Of a stretch of 64,000 nucleotides of DNA, positions 13,158-22,967 are shown piece after piece. Made by a program: the position numbers and the translations under genes. Numbering within the stretch: position 1 is the stretch's first letter; every line of letters starts with the position of its first letter. The notes beneath the pieces are model-generated. The model made no database searches. It was given only the letters and a program-made list of their open reading frames with translations, and was not told the origin of the DNA. Source of the stretch: Porphyrobacter sp. AAP60 (lineage in GTDB: Bacteria; Pseudomonadota; Alphaproteobacteria; Sphingomonadales; Sphingomonadaceae); NCBI RefSeq assembly GCF_001296025.1, contig NZ_LJHV01000002.1:558001-622000 (forward strand), read 5' to 3'.

Positions 13158-13933
13158 TGCTGGTCGATAGCCACTGCCACCTTGAATATAAAGGCTTGGT
13201 CGATGATCAGGCCGGCGTGCTTTCGCGCGCGCGGGAAGCCGGGGTCAGGGCATTTCTCAATATCTCTACCCGCCAGAGCGAATGGGATCAGGTGATCGCA
13301 ACGGCGGAGCGCGAGCCAGACGTATTCGCCAGCGTTGGCATTCACCCGCACGAAGCGGATGCACACAAGGATCTCGGCCGCGAGATATTGCGCGCGGCAA
13401 CCCACCATCCGCGCGTGATTGCGATCGGAGAGACGGGTCTGGACTATTTCTACGACCATTCGGACAGAGACACGCAGAAGCGCCTGTTTCGTATGCATAT
13501 TGATGTCGCTCGCGAAACGCAGTTGCCGCTCATCATCCATACCCGTGATGCCGAAGATGATACCTTCGCGATCCTTGCAGATGAAATGGGGAAGGGGGCC
13601 TTTCCCGCTCTGATCCACTGCTTCACCGCTTCGGCTGAGTTTGGCGAAAAGGTACTTGAACTGGGTCTCACGATCTCGCTATCCGGCATCGTAACCTTCA
13701 AGAATGCCAAGGCCTTGCAAGACGTTGCCAAGACTGTGCCTGAAGACAGGCTGTTGGTGGAAACCGACAGTCCGTTTCTTGCGCCGGTGCCGCATCGTGG
13801 CAAAGTATGCGAGCCGGCTTACGTCGCCGACACCGCAGCCTACATTGCCGGATTGCGCGGAACCGACGTTGAACAACTGAAGGCGCAGACATCCGCCAAT
13901 TTCTTCAATCTTTTCCGTAAGGCACAACCGTGA
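13157..13933 (+). CDS. TatD-family metal-dependent hydrolase (putative DNase)
   Basis: A 258-residue TIM-barrel protein of the TatD/YcfH family, usually described as a Mg-dependent 3'-5' exonuclease on DNA or RNA. Metal ligands are seen in DSHCHLE (residues 4-10), in IGETGLDYFYD (the conserved Glu), in PLIIHTRDA, in ALIHCFTAS, and in the final Asp of LLVETDSPFLAPVPHRG. The gene follows metG with a TGATG overlap, and the metG-tatD-MBL order is widespread in alphaproteobacteria. Substrate and role here are inferred from the family only. Confidence 0.92.
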   Translation: MLVDSHCHLEYKGLVDDQAGVLSRAREAGVRAFLNISTRQSEWDQVIATAEREPDVFASVGIHPHEADAHKDLGREILRAATHHPRVIAIGETGLDYFYDHSDRDTQKRLFRMHIDVARETQLPLIIHTRDAEDDTFAILADEMGKGAFPALIHCFTASAEFGEKVLELGLTISLSGIVTFKNAKALQDVAKTVPEDRLLVETDSPFLAPVPHRGKVCEPAYVADTAAYIAGLRGTDVEQLKAQTSANFFNLFRKAQP

Positions 13934-14712
13934 AACTGGTGATGCTCGGCTCTGGCACCTCTACCGGGGTGCCGCGGCTGGGCGGGCCGGATGGCGCGGG
14001 CGATTGGGGTGAATGCGACCCCGACGAACCCCGGAACCGCCGGACGCGGGTCTCCATCTTGGTCGAAAGCGACGAAGGCAAAAGGTTGCTCGTTGATACC
14101 TCATCGGATTGCCGGGCGCAGCTCCTTGCCAATCGGGTGGGAAGCATCGACGCAGTTTTCTGGACACATGACCACGCCGATCACTGTCATGGCATCGACG
14201 ATTTGCGGGTGCTTCGATATGGCCGGGCCGGGCCAATTCCAGGCTTTGGCGAAACGGAAACGGTCCGACGCCTGCGGCAGCGTTTCGGGTATGTGTTTGC
14301 CGGACAGGAAGGCTACCCGACGATCTGCACAATCGACACGCTTGACCGGCTGAGGATGATCGCCGGTTTTGGTGTGGACTGGTGCCAGATGGCGCACGGT
14401 CCGGGTGAAACAACAGCCTTCCGATTTGAAGCCGATGGGAAGTCTATCGGTTACGCCACTGATTTCAGTGCAATTTCGGATGAAATGATCGATCTGTTTT
14501 ACAAGGTCGATATCTTGGTGAGCGATTGCCTTCGCCGCGATCCCCATCCGACGCACGCTCATCTCGGCATGGCAATCGAGTTTGGTGAACGCTGCAAGGC
14601 AGGCCGTGTTGTGCTAAGCCATCTGGACAAAAGCATGGATTACCAGACGCTTTGCAGCGAAGTGCCGGAGTTCGTGACGGTGGGATATGACGGGCTGGAG
14701 ATGAAGGCATGA
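13930..14712 (+). CDS. MBL-fold metallohydrolase, PhnP-like
   Basis: A 260-residue metallo-beta-lactamase-fold hydrolase. The dinuclear metal motif HDHADHCHG occupies residues 80-88, with further ligands expected in VSDCLRRDPHPTHAHLGMAIE and LSHLDKSMDY. PhnP-like enzymes are phosphodiesterases (for example on cyclic ribose phosphates), but homologues beside tatD in alphaproteobacteria are not tied to phosphonate use. A GTG start overlaps the tatD stop (GTGA), and the stop overlaps the next ATG. No phn genes are near. Confidence 0.85.
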   Translation: MKLVMLGSGTSTGVPRLGGPDGAGDWGECDPDEPRNRRTRVSILVESDEGKRLLVDTSSDCRAQLLANRVGSIDAVFWTHDHADHCHGIDDLRVLRYGRAGPIPGFGETETVRRLRQRFGYVFAGQEGYPTICTIDTLDRLRMIAGFGVDWCQMAHGPGETTAFRFEADGKSIGYATDFSAISDEMIDLFYKVDILVSDCLRRDPHPTHAHLGMAIEFGERCKAGRVVLSHLDKSMDYQTLCSEVPEFVTVGYDGLEMKA

Positions 14713-14906
14713 ACCCCGATCTGTTGCTCCCGATTGTCAGCAGCGCTGCATGGTTGATCCTCGCGGCGAGCGCTCTTGCATCGTTCCGCCTTGGTTGGGG
14801 TCAGATGATCAAGATGGCGTTGCTCTGGATAGCGATTTTCGGCGGGATTTTTCTTGCGGTCGAGTGGTTCTTCATTGCCCAAGGCAGCGCCGCCACACTG
14901 GTTTAG
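14709..14906 (+). CDS. Small membrane protein of unknown function
   Basis: A 65-residue protein with two hydrophobic helices (about 5-25 and 33-56), predicted to span the inner membrane twice. The start overlaps the preceding hydrolase stop (ATGA), which supports translation. I do not recognise a named family. The gene ends 38 bp before mazG; the gap holds a very A+T-rich stretch (AACATAATATATATTATCC) that could carry a separate mazG promoter. Confidence 0.65.
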   Translation: MNPDLLLPIVSSAAWLILAASALASFRLGWGQMIKMALLWIAIFGGIFLAVEWFFIAQGSAATLV

Positions 14907-14944
14907 ATTTAACATAATATATATTATCCATCTTGAGGATCGGG

Positions 14945-15712
14945 ATGAACGACAGCCCTAGCGAGCACCCAATCGAGCGCCTGCTCTCTATCATGGCACG
15001 GCTGCGCGATCCTAGAACCGGCTGTGACTGGGACCTTGCACAAAACTTTGCGACCATTGCACCCTACACGATCGAGGAAGCTTACGAGGTTGCCGACGCC
15101 ATAGAGCGCGGCGACATGAGCGACCTCAAGGATGAACTCGGCGACCTGCTGCTTCAGGTTGTCTTTCATGCGCGCATGGCTGAAGAAGCCGCCCACTTTG
15201 CGTTTGCCGATGTTGCCAACGCCATCGGCGACAAGATGCAAGCGCGACATCCACACATCTTCGGCGATGCGAAAGGAACGATGGACGATACGCGCTGGGA
15301 AGACCTGAAGGCAGATGAGCGATCGGCCAAAGGTGTAACCAGCGCTCTCGACGGCGTGGCTACCGCCCTTCCAGCCTTGATGCGGGCACAAAAACTTCAG
15401 AAACGCGCCGCGCGCACAGGCTTCGATTGGCCTGATCCTACAGGGTCTGAAGCCAAGATTGCCGAGGAAATTGATGAACTTAAATCAGCCCCATCCGATG
15501 ACGCCAGGTTTGAGGAAGCCGGCGATCTGCTGTTCGCCGCCGTCAACTTTGTTCGCGCCCATGGCATCAGCGCCGAAGAAGCATTGCGCGCAGCCAACAA
15601 GAAATTTGAACGCCGGTTCCGGGCGATGGAAGAATTGAGCGGCGGTGATTTTCCTAACCTGTCACTCGATGAACAAGAAGGTCTGTGGCAAGCAGTCAAG
15701 AAGACCGAATAG
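14945..15712 (+). CDS. mazG: Nucleoside triphosphate pyrophosphohydrolase
   Basis: Hydrolyses NTPs or dNTPs to monophosphates and PPi, a housecleaning function. The 255-residue protein has two MazG domains. The first shows LRDPRTGCDWD, the catalytic Glu/Asp set in YTIEEAYEVADAI and the helix DLKDELGDLLLQVVFHARMA. The second, in the C-terminal half, has EIDELKSA and FEEAGDLLFAAVNFVR. The ATG at 14945 follows TTGAGGATCGGG, a reasonable ribosome site; a TTG four codons earlier is less likely. The gene converges on hflX with an 11-bp gap and no clear terminator. Confidence 0.93.
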   Translation: MNDSPSEHPIERLLSIMARLRDPRTGCDWDLAQNFATIAPYTIEEAYEVADAIERGDMSDLKDELGDLLLQVVFHARMAEEAAHFAFADVANAIGDKMQARHPHIFGDAKGTMDDTRWEDLKADERSAKGVTSALDGVATALPALMRAQKLQKRAARTGFDWPDPTGSEAKIAEEIDELKSAPSDDARFEEAGDLLFAAVNFVRAHGISAEEALRAANKKFERRFRAMEELSGGDFPNLSLDEQEGLWQAVKKTE

Positions 15713-15723
15713 AGCCCTGAATT

Positions 15724-17049
15724 CTAGAACGAAATGCTCGAGAATTGTCCCAATTCCTTGGGGTTTAGCCGCACCGTCAAGCGACGCACCGGGCCGTCCT
15801 CACCCTCGCCGCCGTCTTCGTCTGCCAAGACCTCGCCATGGGCATGCAGCCAGGCAATCCGTCGTCCATCCTGCACTGGCAGGATAAACGTAGCCTCGCG
15901 CGCAGTGCCGGTGAGCATCCGCGCCAATTCCGCTTCGAGCGCATCAACGCCCTCACCTGTCACCGCTGAAAGAGCAATGGTGCCCTGTCCCGCGGCCAGC
16001 TCCCGCAGTTCATCAAGTGATTCAGCATCCAGCAGGTCACACTTGTTCCAAACTTCAAGGATCGGGATCGCACTGGTGCCGGTTTCGGCATCGACCACAC
16101 CCAGATCGCCAAGCACATCGATCACTTGCTTTTTCTGCGCAGCATGGCTGGGATTGGCCATATCGCGAACATGGCAGATGACATCAGCAGCGGTCACTTC
16201 TTCCAAAGTGGCGCGAAACGCAGCAACCAGCTGCGTCGGCAGATCGGAGATAAAGCCCACCGTATCTGAAAGGATCACCTTTTCGACCCCCGGCAGCCCG
16301 ATCGCGCGCATGGTTGGATCAAGCGTAGCAAACAGCAGGTCTTCAGCCATCACCTCAGCCCCGGTCAGGCGATTGAAAAGCGTGGACTTCCCCGCGTTGG
16401 TATAACCAACCAAGGCAACCACTGGCCAAGGCGCCCTGCCCCGCCGCTCACGGTGAAGTGTGCGGGTCTTTCGGACTTGATCAAGCTCGCGCCGTAGCCG
16501 GCTCATCCGCTGCCGGATCATTCGCCGGTCGGCCTCGATCTGGGTTTCGCCCGGCCCGCCAAGAAAGCCGAACCCACCGCGCTGACGTTCCAGGTGAGTC
16601 CAACTGCGCACAAGGCGGCTCTGCTGGTAATCGAGATGCGCCAATTCGACCTGCAAGCGACCTTCGGCAGTCGCGGCGCGCTCCCCGAAGATTTCAAGGA
16701 TCAGGCCGGTCCGGTCGATGACCTTGCGCTTGAGCTTGTCTTCAAGGTTGCGCTGCTGGATCGGCGTCAGCGCGCCATCCACGATGACAAGCTCCGCCTC
16801 GTATTGCTCGCACCAGACCGCAATATTCTGCACCTGGCCAGAACCGAACAGAGTGTTAGGCTGCATCTTGCGGACCGGCAGGATCGCGGAATGCCCGATG
16901 ACGACACCAATCGCAAGCGCAAGCCCTTCGGCCTCCGCAAGCCGCTCGGCGGCGTCGAGATCATAGCGCAACGCACGAATATCCGGGCACAGCACCAGCG
17001 CCCGCGCACCGCGGGTTACTTCGTCCTGAAGATCGCTATCAAAGCTCAG
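15724..17049 (-). CDS. hflX: Ribosome-associated GTPase HflX, probable CTG start
   Basis: HflX is a GTPase that splits stalled or heat-damaged 70S ribosomes. The protein shows the HflX N-terminal nucleotide-binding region with LFGSGQV and [14 protein letters not shown], a coiled-coil linker around [13 protein letters not shown], and the G domain with G1 [13 protein letters not shown]3 DTVGF and G4 NKCD. The first ATG/GTG/TTG is GTG at 16995, but the frame is open upstream and encodes the conserved-looking [17 protein letters not shown]. The only upstream start candidate is CTG at 17047-17049, which overlaps the hfq stop as CTGA. I therefore give the 441-residue form; GTG at 16995 gives 423. 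Confidence 0.9.
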
Positions 17050-17627
17050 TCGTCTATCCCGTCGTCATCGCTGTCTTCATCATCGACGCTGAGATCGACA
17101 GGCCCTGCGGGCTGAATGGTGGAAACCGCATGCTTGTAGGCCAGTTGGACTGCCCCGTCGCGTTCCAGCAGCATGCAGAACAGGTCATAGGCAGCGATAC
17201 GACCCTGCAGCATCACACCATTCACAAGAAACATAGTGACCTGAACATGGGCCTCGGCCACGCGGCTCAGGAAAATATCCTGCAACAGTTTTTGCTTCTT
17301 GCCGCCAGCCTGACTGCCGAACTGCGCCGGATCCAGCGCCTGCCCCGGCATGATCGTGCTGATCGCATGCTTGTACACCAGCTGCGATTGCCCGTCACGG
17401 CGCAGAAGGATGGAAAAATTGTCGAACCATGTGACAATGCCTTGAAGCTTTACGCCTTTGACTAGAAACATGGTGACCGGAATCTTGTTCTTGCGCAGCA
17501 GGTTGAGGAATGCATCCTGCAAGTTGCCGGCTCGTGTGGAAGCAGCGCCCCCACTGGTTCCGCGCGGTTCTGTTACAGCACTGGCTGGCGCAACGGGACG
17601 GGGAGAGAGAGTTCGTCCACTGGACAT
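17046..17627 (-). CDS. hfq: RNA chaperone Hfq with two Sm domains in tandem
   Basis: Hfq binds sRNAs and mRNAs and promotes their pairing. Canonical Hfq is about 70-100 residues and forms a hexamer; this one is 193 residues with two Hfq domains. Domain 1 (35-94) is near-canonical: [27 protein letters not shown] and YKHAIST. Domain 2 (113-173) has [16 protein letters not shown] and YKHAVST, with Lys replaced by Met in the distal-face KLQG motif. A Ser/Ala/Pro-rich leader precedes the domains and an acidic tail (178-193) follows. A trimer of tandem units could form a pseudo-hexamer. The ATG is fixed by AGGAG eight bases upstream; 157 bp separate it from ntrX. Confidence 0.95.
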
Positions 17628-17784
17628 GACTGTGGCTCCTTGTTTTTGGCGGCCGCCTTTGCGGTCCGCAAATAAAGGACTGAAAACGCATCGGGGCGCG
17701 GAAACAATCCTGCCAGCATCATGCCGCCTGTAATGCGCGGCGACAAGGCTTGATTTCAGGGGAGTACAGCCGCCTGTCGAAGCT

Positions 17785-19167
17785 TCAATCGTCATCCTCA
17801 CGGCGATCTGCCATGCCCAGCAGCTTGAGCTTACGGTGCAAGGCCGAACGCTCCATGCCGATGAAACTCGCGGTTTTGGAGATATTTCCGGAAAAGCGGC
17901 GAATCTGGATCGTAAGATATTCCCGCTCGAAACTTTCCCGCGCCTCGCGCAGCGGCACGCCCATGATCGCTGACAGGCTGTCACCGGCCATTCCGATCTG
18001 CCCGCCGATGATCTCCGGCGGCAGCATGTCCGGTTCAACCGTGCTGAGCTTTTCGCGCGGCGTCATGATGATGGTGCGCTCGACTACGTTGCGCAATTGG
18101 CGGACATTGCCGGGCCAATCATAGGCTTGCAGCGCCGCCATAGCCTCGGCCGAAATGTCCGGCGGTGCGAGACCCTGATCGTTGGAATAGCGTGTGAAAA
18201 AATGTTCGGCCAGAGCCGGGACATCCTCGCGGCGCTGCGCCAGCGACGGGATCGCCACTGGCACCACGTTGAGCCGGTAAAACAGATCTTCGCGGAAGCG
18301 CTTTTCTTCCATTTCGACGGTGAGATCGCGGGTCGTGGAAGAAACCACCCGCACGTCCACGCCAATCTGCCGTGTGCCGCCGACCCGCACAAAGCTCTGA
18401 TCGGTCAATACCCGCAGGATCCGTGCCTGGGTGGAGAGCGGCATGTCGGCAATCTCGTCGAGATAAAGCGTGCCGCCATCGGCCATTTCGAGCAGGCCGG
18501 GCCGCACCTGCTTGCCGCCGGCTTCCTCGCCAAACAGTTCCTGTTCGAAGCGTTCAGGAGTGATCCGGGCCGAGTTCACCAATACGAAGGCACCATCGGA
18601 ACGCGCGCTCCAAGCGTGGAGCAGCCGCGCGGCGACTTCCTTGCCTGCGCCGGGCGGGCCCGAAATCAGCACCCGGCTGCCGGTGCTGGCGACGCGTTTC
18701 AACGTCGCCCGCACACTGTTGATCGAGGGCGAATTGCCGGTGAATTCCGCGCTGCCCCAGCTGCCTTCGCGCAAGCGGGAATTCTCGCGCCGCAGCCGCT
18801 CGGTCTCGGTCGCGCGTTCGACCAGCAGCAGCAGCCGCTCGGCCTCGAACGGCTTTTCGATGAAGTCCATTGCTCCGCGGCCGACAGCTGCAACCGCCGT
18901 GTCGATATTGCCGTGTCCGGAGAAGATGATCACAGGCAAGTTCGGCTCGCGCAGCTTGATCGCGTCAAGCAGTTCGAGCCCATCCATCTGGCTGCCGTGC
19001 AGCCACACGTCGAGCAGGACAAGGCTGGGCCGTCGTTCATCGATCGCTGCGAGCGCAGCGGTGCTATCTGCGGCGGTACGGCAGGCATAGCCTTCATCGC
19101 CGAGCACCCCGGCGACAAGCTCGCGAATGTCGCGTTCATCATCGACGATGAGGATTTCAAGCGCCAT
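17785..19167 (-). CDS. ntrX: Two-component response regulator NtrX (sigma-54 activator-like, without GAFTGA)
   Basis: NtrX is the partner regulator of NtrY in nitrogen and redox signalling. The 460-residue protein has a receiver domain (about 1-120, VDDERD and LLDVWLHG with the phospho-acceptor Asp), an AAA+ domain (about 145-370, [16 protein letters not shown] and [13 protein letters not shown]), and a Fis-type helix-turn-helix at the C-terminus ([19 protein letters not shown]). The position of the sigma-54 contact loop GAFTGA reads [12 protein letters not shown], so the motif is absent. The ATG at 19167 has AAGGA eight bases upstream; a GTG two codons earlier lacks spacing. Confidence 0.93.
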
Positions 19168-19212
19168 GGGCACAGTCCTTCGGATTTGAGGGATTCAGGG
19201 GGGCAGCACAAA

Positions 19213-21438
19213 TCACAGCGCTACGCCTTCGGGGGGTTGCGGGTTGCGGGCAAAACGAAGTGTTACGCGGGCGCCGCCGCTGGGCGTGCTGGCAAAACTC
19301 ATGTCGCCGCCGTGTTCGTCGACGATCTTGTTGACGATCGCGAGGCCAAGGCCGGTGCCTTTCTCGCGGGTGGTGACGTAAGGTTCGGTCAGGCGTTCAC
19401 GGTCAGACGGTAAGCCGATCCCGTTGTCTTCGATTGTCACGACAACTGCGTCCCCTGCATCGCGCATCGCCACCGCAATTTCGCCTTCGTACTGCCCCAA
19501 GGCTTCCCCCGCCCGCGCCTCCACCGCTTCCACAGCATTCTTGAGTACGTTGGTCATCGCCTGGCCGAATTGGTGGCGGTCGCAGCGAATTTCGCGATCG
19601 ATCAGCTCGGACGATGCAACGCTGAAGGCAATGCCGGAATGGGCCACTTCCTGCAGGAACACTGCCTGCCGGACGAGATCCAGCGCGTCCTCGTCACGGA
19701 ACACCGGCTTTGGCAGACGTGCGAAGGACGAGAATTCATCGACCATCTTGCGAAGATCACCAACCTGGCGGACGATCGTGCTGGTGAGTTCGTCAAATAG
19801 ATCGCGATCTTCATCGCCAACCTGCGTGCGATAACGCCGCTTCAGGCGCTCGGTAGCCAACTGGATCGGGGTGAGCGGGTTCTTGATCTCATGCGCAATC
19901 CGGCGCGCAACATCGGACCACGCCGCTTGCCGCTGGTCGAGCAGCTGGCGGGTGATGTCCTCAAAGGTGATCACGTGCCCGCTGGTTCCGGGCGCCACCT
20001 TGACGGCAAGCGTCAGCAGTTCGGTGCCCTTGGCATGGGTGATGATCGCGCGCTCTTTACCGTCAGCGATCATGTGACACAATTCGGGGGCCAGCGTTTC
20101 GAGCGAATGGCCGATCATGCTCGCCCCACCTTCGGATGCAAGCAGAACCTGCGCCGACGAGTTCATCAGCGTCACCCGCGAATTGTCATCGACCGAAATC
20201 ACCCCGGCGGTGACAGATTCCAGCACGGCTTCGGTAAAGGCGCGGCGGTCATCGATCTGGCGGTTGGCGCTCACAAGCGCCTGCGTCTGCTTTTCCAGCT
20301 GCGCGGTCATGCGGTTGAAGGCCCGGTTGAGCATTCCGATCTCGTCCGCGCCGGTCCGCCCCTCAAGCCGCAGCGCGAAATTGCCCTGCCCCACCTTGCG
20401 CGCCGCGCCCACCAGATTGGTGAGCGGCTGAACCTGACGATCAGCAAAGCGCAACGCAAACCAGATTGCCAACCCTACGAGCAGCAAACTGACACCGACC
20501 AGCGCCAGATTGAAGCGCAGCTGCAACGTCCGTGCGCTCCCCGTAAGACGGTCATAGGCACCGACAATCGACTGCGCACGCGACCATGAATTGAACATCG
20601 TCTCTTCCGTGGTGCGCGCATTGTAGAGATAGACACCGCTTTCCGGATCAATCGGCACCAGCGCTTCGATCCTCTCGGGACTGCCGACGACCACGACCAA
20701 TTCACCCTGATCCAGCTTCTCTACCGCCGCGCGAGTGAACTGGAGATGGCCCGAGTTCTGCGGCAAGTTGAAGGCGAATGCCGTTCGGAACGAGCCATCC
20801 GCCACCCGTTGCAGGATCGCACTTTCGGAGATCTCGCGCCCCTGCGCCTGATAGAGGTAGAAGTCGGGGAAATCGGGATCGGTGATCGGCACCCGCGCCA
20901 GAATTTCGCGCATGTCGGTCGCCATGATAACACTGTTTTGTTCGACGTTGCGCTGGTTGGCGTCATAATAACTCTGCGCCAGCGCATTGGCATTTTCCAT
21001 CAACCCGCGGGAGTCATCGGAAAACCAGAAGTCGACACCGGTCTGGAACAGGAAAGCGGCAAACCCCGCTACCAGCAGGGTCGGCAGCGCGGCGACCATT
21101 GAAAAGAAGAACACCAGCCTGACATGCAGCCGCGCCGTGCTCCCAGCAGCACGCCGCAGCGCGAGGCGGCGGCCAATCAACACCAGCAACGCCATCGCCG
21201 GCACCAAAGTTGCCATCAACAGGACCGAAACCTGCATTGTGGGCAGCAAATCGTCCGACGCTGTGGAGCGATTGAAAGAGTAATAAGTCGCAACAATCGC
21301 AGCCACCAGCGCGATGACTGCCAGAATTTCGAGCCACAGGAAAATGTTAGCCCGGCGCGCTGCAATCGCGAAGCGACGCCACCAGCGCGGTGGCTGCCGT
21401 ATGCTCAGGCTTGAGGCGCTGGTCGCGGGGCTATCCAT
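19213..21438 (-). CDS. ntrY: Sensor histidine kinase NtrY
   Basis: A membrane sensor kinase for NtrX. The protein (741 residues from this start) has an N-terminal membrane region with several hydrophobic helices (about 30-135), an extracytoplasmic segment of about 190 residues, a further helix and HAMP domain (NLVGAARKVGQGNFALRL), a PAS domain (ITFEDITRQ at its end), a HisKA domain with phospho-accepting His in ARRIAHEIKNPLTPIQL, and an ATPase domain with DNGIGLP and GTGLGLAIVNKIVDEHGG. Starts at 21450 (ATG) and 21468 (TTG) are alternatives; 21438 has the better AGG spacing. It lies 45 bp upstream of ntrX and 92 bp after ntrC. Confidence 0.92.
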   Translation of the reverse strand: MDSPATSASSLSIRQPPRWWRRFAIAARRANIFLWLEILAVIALVAAIVATYYSFNRSTASDDLLPTMQVSVLLMATLVPAMALLVLIGRRLALRRAAGSTARLHVRLVFFFSMVAALPTLLVAGFAAFLFQTGVDFWFSDDSRGLMENANALAQSYYDANQRNVEQNSVIMATDMREILARVPITDPDFPDFYLYQAQGREISESAILQRVADGSFRTAFAFNLPQNSGHLQFTRAAVEKLDQGELVVVVGSPERIEALVPIDPESGVYLYNARTTEETMFNSWSRAQSIVGAYDRLTGSARTLQLRFNLALVGVSLLLVGLAIWFALRFADRQVQPLTNLVGAARKVGQGNFALRLEGRTGADEIGMLNRAFNRMTAQLEKQTQALVSANRQIDDRRAFTEAVLESVTAGVISVDDNSRVTLMNSSAQVLLASEGGASMIGHSLETLAPELCHMIADGKERAIITHAKGTELLTLAVKVAPGTSGHVITFEDITRQLLDQRQAAWSDVARRIAHEIKNPLTPIQLATERLKRRYRTQVGDEDRDLFDELTSTIVRQVGDLRKMVDEFSSFARLPKPVFRDEDALDLVRQAVFLQEVAHSGIAFSVASSELIDREIRCDRHQFGQAMTNVLKNAVEAVEARAGEALGQYEGEIAVAMRDAGDAVVVTIEDNGIGLPSDRERLTEPYVTTREKGTGLGLAIVNKIVDEHGGDMSFASTPSGGARVTLRFARNPQPPEGVAL

Positions 21439-21530
21439 CGTTGCCTGCATACAACAATGGTGTGGCAAAAATGCAAGCCTATTCCGACAGACTGTGTTTT
21501 CGGCGAGGCGACAATCCCTTTGCCAAACCG

Positions 21531-22967
21531 CTACTGCGGCGAGAACCGGTCGGGTTCGAGACCCAGTTCTCCGATCCGCTTGCGAAGGGTATTCCTGTTA
21601 ATGCCAAGCAGTTGGGCGGCCCGCAACTGATTGCCGCCGGTGCGGCCCAGCGCATATTCGATCAACGGCTTTTCAAAAGCAGCCAGCGCCCGGTGATAGA
21701 TCGCGCCCGATGGGGGAGTTTCCAGCGCAAGCCAGTTTGCCAAGGCAGCGCCGAACCCCCCCTGCCCTTGTTCGGCAACAAGGTTGGCCGTCTGGATTTC
21801 AGGGCCGATGATGTCGATCACATTGTCAGCGTCGATCCGTTCCTCACGCGCCATCAGGGCGAGGCGGTACACCACATTGCGCAATTCACGCACGTTTCCA
21901 CGCCAGGCCCGCGCTTCAAGTTGGGCCAATGCCTCAGGGGTCAGTTGACGGCGCGGCAAGCCGTCTTCTGCAGCAAGTAGGAGGAAATGCTGGGAAAGTG
22001 CGGCAATATCCTCGCGCCGTTCGCGCAACGGGGGCAGCTCGATCGGCACGACATTCAGCCGGTAGAACAGATCCTCACGGAACGTGCCTGCCGCGATCAT
22101 CGGTGTCAGGTCTCGGTTGGTGGCAGCAATGATGCGGACATTGACTGCGATTTCCTGCCGCCCGCCCACACGCCGGATGCGCCCGGATTGCAGCGCGCGC
22201 AGCAGCCGGGTCTGTGCCTCGGCGGGCATGTCGCCGATCTCGTCAAGGAACAGCGTGCCGCCATTGGCCTGTTCAAACTTGCCGATGGCTTGCGCGATAG
22301 CGCCGGTAAACGCGCCCTTTTCGTGGCCGAACAGCTCGCTTTCGATCAGATCTGCGGGGATTGCGGCGGTATTGACCGCAACGAAAGGCCCTGTGCGCCG
22401 ATTACCAAGCTGATGGATGGCCTCGGCCACCAGTTCCTTGCCTGTGCCACTCTCACCGGTGATCAAGACGGTAAGATCATTGCGCAGCACGCGCGTAATC
22501 ATGCGGTAGACGCCCTGCATCGCCGGGCTGCGCCCCACCAGCGGCATTCGTTCACCCTCGCCGGGCAGCGCATCTACGGCATCGGCTGCCGATGGTGCGC
22601 GCGATCCAACGGCCTGCCGCACGGCGTGCACCAGTTCATCAAGGTCAAAGGGTTTGGGGAAATATTCGAAGGCGTCGCTCTCGCTCGCGCGGACAGCCGT
22701 GTCGAGCGTGTTCTGTGCTGACAGCACGATCACCGGCATGTCCGCAGCTTGGTCACGCACCGCCGCAAGGCTGGCAAGGCCATCGCCATCTTCAAGGATC
22801 ACGTCTGTCAGCATGACCGAAAATCGCCGCCCGCCCAGCAACTTGTCGCGCGCTGCGATGCTGGTGCAGTGTGCGATGGCAAAGCCTTCGTCTTCCAGCG
22901 CGGCTATGATCACCGTGGCAATTGCAGCATCATCTTCAACCAGAAGAACGGGGTCGATTGCGGCCAT
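21531..22967 (-). CDS. ntrC: Nitrogen regulatory response regulator NtrC (NR(I))
   Basis: The 478-residue sigma-54 activator switches on nitrogen-scavenging genes when phosphorylated by NtrB. It has a receiver domain (about 1-120, LVEDDAA and MLTDVILEDGDGL), an AAA+ domain (about 140-375) with TGESGTGKELVAEAIH, the intact sigma-54 loop GHEKGAFTGAIAQAIGKFEQ and GGTLFLDEIGDMP, and a Fis-type helix-turn-helix (GNQLRAAQLLGINRNTLRKRI). The ATG at 22967 is two bases after the ntrB stop, so the pair is translated together. It contrasts with NtrX next door, which lacks GAFTGA. Confidence 0.95.
   Translation of the reverse strand: MAAIDPVLLVEDDAAIATVIIAALEDEGFAIAHCTSIAARDKLLGGRRFSVMLTDVILEDGDGLASLAAVRDQAADMPVIVLSAQNTLDTAVRASESDAFEYFPKPFDLDELVHAVRQAVGSRAPSAADAVDALPGEGERMPLVGRSPAMQGVYRMITRVLRNDLTVLITGESGTGKELVAEAIHQLGNRRTGPFVAVNTAAIPADLIESELFGHEKGAFTGAIAQAIGKFEQANGGTLFLDEIGDMPAEAQTRLLRALQSGRIRRVGGRQEIAVNVRIIAATNRDLTPMIAAGTFREDLFYRLNVVPIELPPLRERREDIAALSQHFLLLAAEDGLPRRQLTPEALAQLEARAWRGNVRELRNVVYRLALMAREERIDADNVIDIIGPEIQTANLVAEQGQGGFGAALANWLALETPPSGAIYHRALAAFEKPLIEYALGRTGGNQLRAAQLLGINRNTLRKRIGELGLEPDRFSPQ

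Follow-up and report, generated by a model that had tools for sequence, protein, structure and literature searches.

How a protein that carries two Hfq domains in one chain assembles an Sm ring, and what each of the two domains contributes to it, is the question raised by the hfq gene of Porphyrobacter sp. AAP60. The gene lies in the window analyzed here, a stretch of 64,000 nucleotides (contig NZ_LJHV01000002.1, positions 558,001 to 622,000). The first-pass annotation of the window had proposed that both domains belong to a single chain and that each carries LQD and YKHA-x-ST. Both points were confirmed. Two matches to PF17209 (Hfq; cut-off 27) were found at G000:C12:575337-575522 (106.3 bits) and 575097-575285 (81.6 bits), in one frame without an internal stop (17046-17627, minus strand), and LQD and YKHA-[IV]-ST were present in each domain of the translation. 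The whole protein scored 183.5 bits with PF17209 over the two stretches, 176 with TIGR02383 (Hfq; cut-off 61.7), and 293.8 bits with NF010691 (cut-off 270), the last match covering model positions 12-176 of 176. Alignment of domain 1 with domain 2 gave a score of 162 (best of 2000 shuffles, 48), and the two were 56.9% identical over positions 7-64. Apart from these two domains, the 3.25 Mb genome gave no Hfq match, which makes the double-domain protein its sole detected Hfq. The closest named locus was a MAG of the Erythrobacteraceae (89% in the best-matching segment), followed by Porphyrobacter and Erythrobacter isolates (84-87%, best eight rows). Features of the locus are listed in Table 1.

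Table 1. Features of the hfq locus and its neighbors (positions in the window; residue numbers of the window protein, with E. coli Hfq numbering where stated).
Feature	Position	Strand	Basis
hfq, two-domain Hfq of 193 aa, from ATG to TGA	17046..17627	minus	translation and profile matches
AAGGAG, Shine-Dalgarno-like, before the hfq ATG	17636..17641	minus	sequence
Hfq domain 1, residues 36-97 (rim R45/K46/K48; YKHAIST)	17337..17522	minus	Pfam match
Hfq domain 1, further residues: K57 (E. coli 28), K60 (31), N70 (41)	17337..17522	minus	
Hfq domain 2, residues 115-177, rim lost (A124/E125/H127)	17097..17285	minus	Pfam match
Hfq domain 2, changed sites: N136 (E. coli 28), M139 (31), L149 (41), Q172 (63)	17097..17285	minus	
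Hfq domain 2, kept residues: Q116, F150, Y164, K165, H166	17097..17285	minus	
Interdomain linker, residues 95-114	17286..17345	minus	
N-terminal extension, residues 1-34, motif GRTLSPRP, low model confidence	17526..17627	minus	
Acidic C-terminal tail, residues 174-193, after the last conserved Pro	17049..17108	minus	
ntrX (response regulator), upstream of hfq	17785..19173	minus	NF051870, 735 vs 600 bits
hflX frame, stop to stop, downstream, overlapping the hfq end	15724..17064	minus	

A double-length Hfq is already known in this bacterial group and the fusion is not new, as the first-pass annotation had suspected. An early survey, taken to be that of Sun, Zhulin and Wartell in 2002, reportedly noted one in Novosphingobium. 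The curated family NF010691 (PRK14091.1, double-length RNA chaperone Hfq, 176 positions) covers the class; compared with it, the window protein is extended at the N terminus by a segment with GRTLSPRP, which some of the double-domain proteins share. According to the available part of a 2010 report, ZMO0347 of Zymomonas mobilis has two Sm-like domains, like the window protein, and six other Sphingomonadales species share this arrangement; the same text raised the question whether three two-domain chains suffice for an Hfq ring and contains no analysis of residue differences between the domains (PMC2877685). Available excerpts further connect hfq with stress tolerance in Z. mobilis, through a mutant (PMC2877685) and through deletion or overexpression (PMC9797736), list, citing earlier work, two hfq-like gene copies for Novosphingobium aromaticivorans (PMC3474761), and report improved growth of N. 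pentaromativorans at 18 °C on hfq overexpression (PMC11784078). Within the literature searched, which was covered in part, a two-domain Hfq chain was described only in PMC2877685; the available text of PMC10725011 (with hfq in the reference list only), PMC5770649, PMC11770335, PMC5107571, PMC7471390, and PMC10992037 describes none. In the same partial coverage, no paper pairing Hfq with "pseudo-hexamer" and no description of the K28/M31/Q63 signature presented below were found. What is added here is the regularity of a fixed, complementary asymmetry between the domains.

Hfq was present in 146 of 149 genomes of the window's family, which we infer from the names of the closest loci to be Sphingomonadaceae in the GTDB sense. 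Among the matches listed, 20 of these genomes had one Hfq match. Another 125 had two, either close together or absent from the matches listed, and a single frame held both domains in all 114 inspected (113 and the window; the remaining 11 were left out). In genome G007 the two matches were 2.8 Mb apart in 119-aa frames and were counted as single. All 80 named loci were double, including those of Novosphingobium; the named relatives comprised Erythrobacter, Qipengyuania, Novosphingobium, and other Sphingomonadales. Together, 113 family genomes, 80 named loci, and the window gave 194 double loci; three copies of the window (L001, L002, and L035) were left out of all counts. In other families of the order sample, 44 of 46 genomes had a match, 43 of them a single one, and G529 had two on different contigs in frames of 91 and 51 aa. 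The NF010691 cut-off was passed by 5 of 385 class genomes, namely the five family members in that sample, and, at the phylum level, by 17 of 398, again all from the window's family; of the two others from the family in that sample, G068 scored 261 bits yet is double (L222), and G040 is single. Outside the family, no genome among the matches listed exceeded this cut-off (380 class and 379 phylum genomes), a count that could miss a diverged double Hfq scoring below the listed matches. In the sampled genomes, the double Hfq is confined to the window's family.

The hflX frame and the end of hfq overlap (17046-17064), with the hfq stop in a CTGA, and no ATG, GTG, or TTG occurs in the hflX frame between the upstream stop at 17064 and position 16995. 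The 18-residue stretch before the first such codon, at 16995, is conserved in relatives. Of the 167 double loci in which the motif was located, 59 lacked a standard hflX start within 60 codons upstream of it; 3 of these 59 were false motif hits, and no motif was located in 66 of all rows. In the 194 double loci, hfq ended in CTGA (141), TTGA (40), ATGA (1), or GTGA (1). A start of hflX at CTG by reinitiation, or a frameshift, is possible; the CTGA may simply follow from the last codon, GAC. A search of Rfam gave no match at gathering score in window positions 13500-22000. Locus L146 (G063) has a single-domain Hfq frame with a TAA inside the domain; in HflX it is very similar to L145, in which the Hfq domain is unbroken.

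Residue positions are hereafter given in E. coli Hfq numbering. The 194 double loci (180 different domain-1 rows) are mutually related, partly of the same species, and are not 194 independent events; the single-domain comparison set consisted of 45 proteins, without the partial L146. Domain 1 had been called canonical in the first-pass annotation. This did not hold at position 28, which was Lys in all 194 first domains and Asn in 45 of 45 single-domain Hfqs; the 20 single-domain Hfqs of the family itself carry N28, unlike any domain 1. Otherwise, domain 1 had K31 in 193, W38 in 193, and N41 in 192 of the 194 loci. The loss of the distal-face Lys from domain 2 (VKLQG to VMLQG) had been noted correctly and extends to the whole set, with Met31 in 194/194. 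Second domains also had L41 (185/194), A38 (173/194), and Gln63 (193/194, the remaining locus being gapped at a contig end). Position 63 presumably faces the distal side of Hfq. In the single-domain loci N28, K31, W38, N41, and M63 were each found in 45/45.

That domain 2 has also lost its basic rim went unremarked in the first-pass annotation. Positions 16, 17, and 19 were all basic in every first domain (194/194) and every single-domain protein (45/45), and in 13 of 194 second domains. The mean net charge of positions 16-19 was +2.8 in domain 1, −0.3 in domain 2, and +2.9 in 46 singles. R16 was retained in 112 of 194 second domains, a charge of +2 or +3 over positions 16-19 was seen in 21 of 194, and domain 2 of the window protein has A, E, and H at the three positions. 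Judged by these residues, the loss is graded across the family and complete in the window protein. N or Q at 41, a basic rim at 16/17/19, and K31, which are functional sites and not a definition of the Hfq family, are all found in domain 1 of the window protein; domain 2 has L41, A/E/H, and M31.

Neither domain has lost the Sm/Hfq core or the greater part of the U-binding pocket. Q8 was found in all 194 first and all 194 second domains, F42 in 193 and 192, Y55 in 194 and 192, and K56, H57, and T61 each in 194 and 193. The window protein has Q8, F42, K56, and H57, which we take to be the U-pocket residues of Hfq, in each of its domains. Within one chain the two domains were on average 59% identical. 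Domain 2 was the more variable, with 80% identity between second domains and 89% between first domains in sampled pairs. One strongly diverged double Hfq, L147 (G077), had R31, G38, and T41 in domain 1 and very long branches for its domains; L225 (G145), which has the same genus code, diverged less.

Net charges of the linker and tail were counted without the partial loci L146 and L089. The linker measured 15-24 residues across the 194 double loci (20 residues in 119 of them) and had a median net charge of 0 (193 loci). The tail after domain 2 had a median of −7 (193 loci) and that of the singles −4 (n = 45); in 180 of 194 doubles, though not in all, the last 15 residues carried a net charge of −4 or lower. 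The best solved match of the window protein by both sequence and fold was Hfq of Caulobacter crescentus (6gwk), which has one domain per chain and forms an ordinary hexamer, unlike the two-domain chain studied here. In that protein, according to the available part of the report, a short acidic tail packs its tip on the basic rim R18/K19/K21 (PMC6561178), residues that align with E. coli positions 16, 17, and 19. It appears from the charges that the acidic tail of the first Hfq copy turned into a near-neutral linker; a typical fusion chain has a single acidic tip and a single strong rim. At the other end of the protein (17590-17627), a short motif, GRTLS[AP]RP, is conserved; a looser form occurred in 127/193 double loci, and the form [RK][TS]L in 105/194 doubles and 0/46 singles. 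It is possibly a docking motif.

A single chain was modeled with AlphaFold2 from 62 sequences (alignment from 61 of 76 named loci with a located start). The best of five models had a mean pLDDT of 81.9 and a pTM of 0.72; the other four had mean pLDDT of 81.3, 76.6, 67.9, and 34.9, a wide spread of confidence. Both domains were mostly at pLDDT 94-98 (blocks of ten), and the N-terminal extension was low. The Sm fold, a helix and five strands, was predicted in both domains (33-105 and 109-183), with Z of about 9 to solved Hfq. With VIA-align, model residues 33-105 were superimposed on 6gwk (Z 9.7, rmsd 1.1, 71 aligned) and residues 111-179 on 5szd (Z 9.5, rmsd 1.4, 69 aligned). No solved two-domain Hfq chain was present among the fold and sequence matches listed. 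The placement of the two domains relative to each other in the single-chain model is probably confident, because the pTM of 0.72 equals the share of residues with pLDDT of at least 70 (139/193).

The origin of the fusion was examined with a tree of HflX (104 rows: 71 doubles, 20 family singles, and 13 from outside the family). Its doubles were the window and the first 70 of 109 loci, thinned from 112; the 80 named loci were left out. A single change accounts for the double form on this tree (SH-aLRT 76, a modest support), and the fork of L010 (single) and L147 (double) was not settled. In a tree of the domains (60 columns), second domains lay on one side of a branch with a support of 89, and domain 1 needs two changes, because domain 1 of L147 joins the E. 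coli row via long branches. L147 is very divergent in both domains, and we are unsure of its placement. A single duplication is the simplest reading, with modest support. That family singles arose by secondary loss of domain 2 was not supported: the HflX tree needs a single gain, and the 20 singles have N28.

As an explanation of the whole, we consider it likely that three chains form a single Sm ring of six alternating domains (1, 2, 1, 2, 1, 2), with threefold and not sixfold symmetry. The fusion would have arisen by duplication of the whole gene inside the family, and each ring would take up three chains with the two domain kinds in alternation. U-rich 3′ ends would still bind the pore. ARN-rich RNA on the distal face would meet six lysines arranged as three K28+K31 pairs, not as six single K31, and sRNA-mRNA annealing would be left to the three domain-1 rims. 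An acidic tip, probably that of the neighboring domain 2, would cover each rim, and the ratio of tips to rims would stay 1:1, as three and three. The heteromeric Sm/Lsm rings of eukaryotes likewise consist of diverged Sm domains, but they have separate genes and seven members, and the Hfq fusion, unlike them, would fix the order of its two domain kinds. Such eukaryotic rings are mentioned in the available part of PMC2877685.

The first-pass annotation had pictured a pseudo-hexamer of three chains with three canonical and three altered distal sites. The altered half stands, with domain 2 changed; both kinds of site may nevertheless differ from standard Hfq, because domain 1 has changed too (K28). 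In the available part of PMC12262471, K31A and R16A have effects in E. coli; K31A is mild in total-RNA and earlier reporter assays, yet gives fewer RNA-RNA chimeras. Given the mildness of K31A, the effect of the lysine change may be small. In simulations of Pseudomonas Hfq, N28 and I30 were proposed as a distal N pocket in which the backbone of N28 binds (PMC8121710, available part), and N28K therefore need not alter that pocket.

The same residues could also be accommodated by other arrangements. Six chains might build two linker-joined rings, six copies of domain 1 in one and six of domain 2 in the other, and the Sm core and YKHA motif kept in each domain, with a mean within-chain identity of 59%, are what two separate homomeric rings could show. 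The high pTM of the single-chain model, however, suggests a defined contact between the domains, and fixed complementary changes at neighboring 28 and 31 would be easier in one mixed ring; we regard stacked rings as quite unlikely. That either domain acts alone, released by an internal start or by proteolysis, seems very improbable. A start-capable codon lies near the start of domain 2 in 104/194 loci (TTG in the window), but an SD-like 4-mer with a start codon was found there in 9/194, against 174/194 before domain 1. On this count, a conserved internal start from which domain 2 would be expressed separately was not supported. We give practically no credence to a sequencing or assembly error joining two genes, which the first-pass annotation had named among the findings that would overturn it: the same architecture recurs in 194 loci from many assemblies with both domains in frame, a curated family describes it, and so does the available part of the 2010 Zymomonas report (PMC2877685). 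An assembly or frameshift artifact is refuted by these loci.

A different kind of alternative concerns the cause of the asymmetry and is compatible with the threefold ring. The ring may act in the ordinary way, domain 2 having decayed where six copies are unneeded (constructive neutral change). The greater variability of domain 2, its loss of the rim and of N41, and L147 as an extreme decayed pair all agree with this. Decay alone is nevertheless insufficient to explain the sites that are constant in 194 loci bar one gap, namely K28 of domain 1 together with M31 and Q63 of domain 2, and we find this account rather unlikely. Returning to the alternating ring, we advance tentatively, and with some doubt, a stronger form of it. 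The ring would be obligately alternating across the clade, with the paired distal lysines 28/31 and the annealing rim on domain 1 only, and domain 2 would be a specialized subunit, with its U-pocket residues kept and the acidic inhibitory tip at its end.

If this is true, the alternating ring would read ARN repeats in a two-site period of six nucleotides and not in a period of three. In ordinary Hfq one mutation hits all six sites, so the need for each is hard to test; in the natural fused dimer, three sites can be changed at a time. The conserved split in this family predicts which sites of the Hfq ring may be halved (rim, K31, and N41) and which may not (the U pocket and the Sm core).
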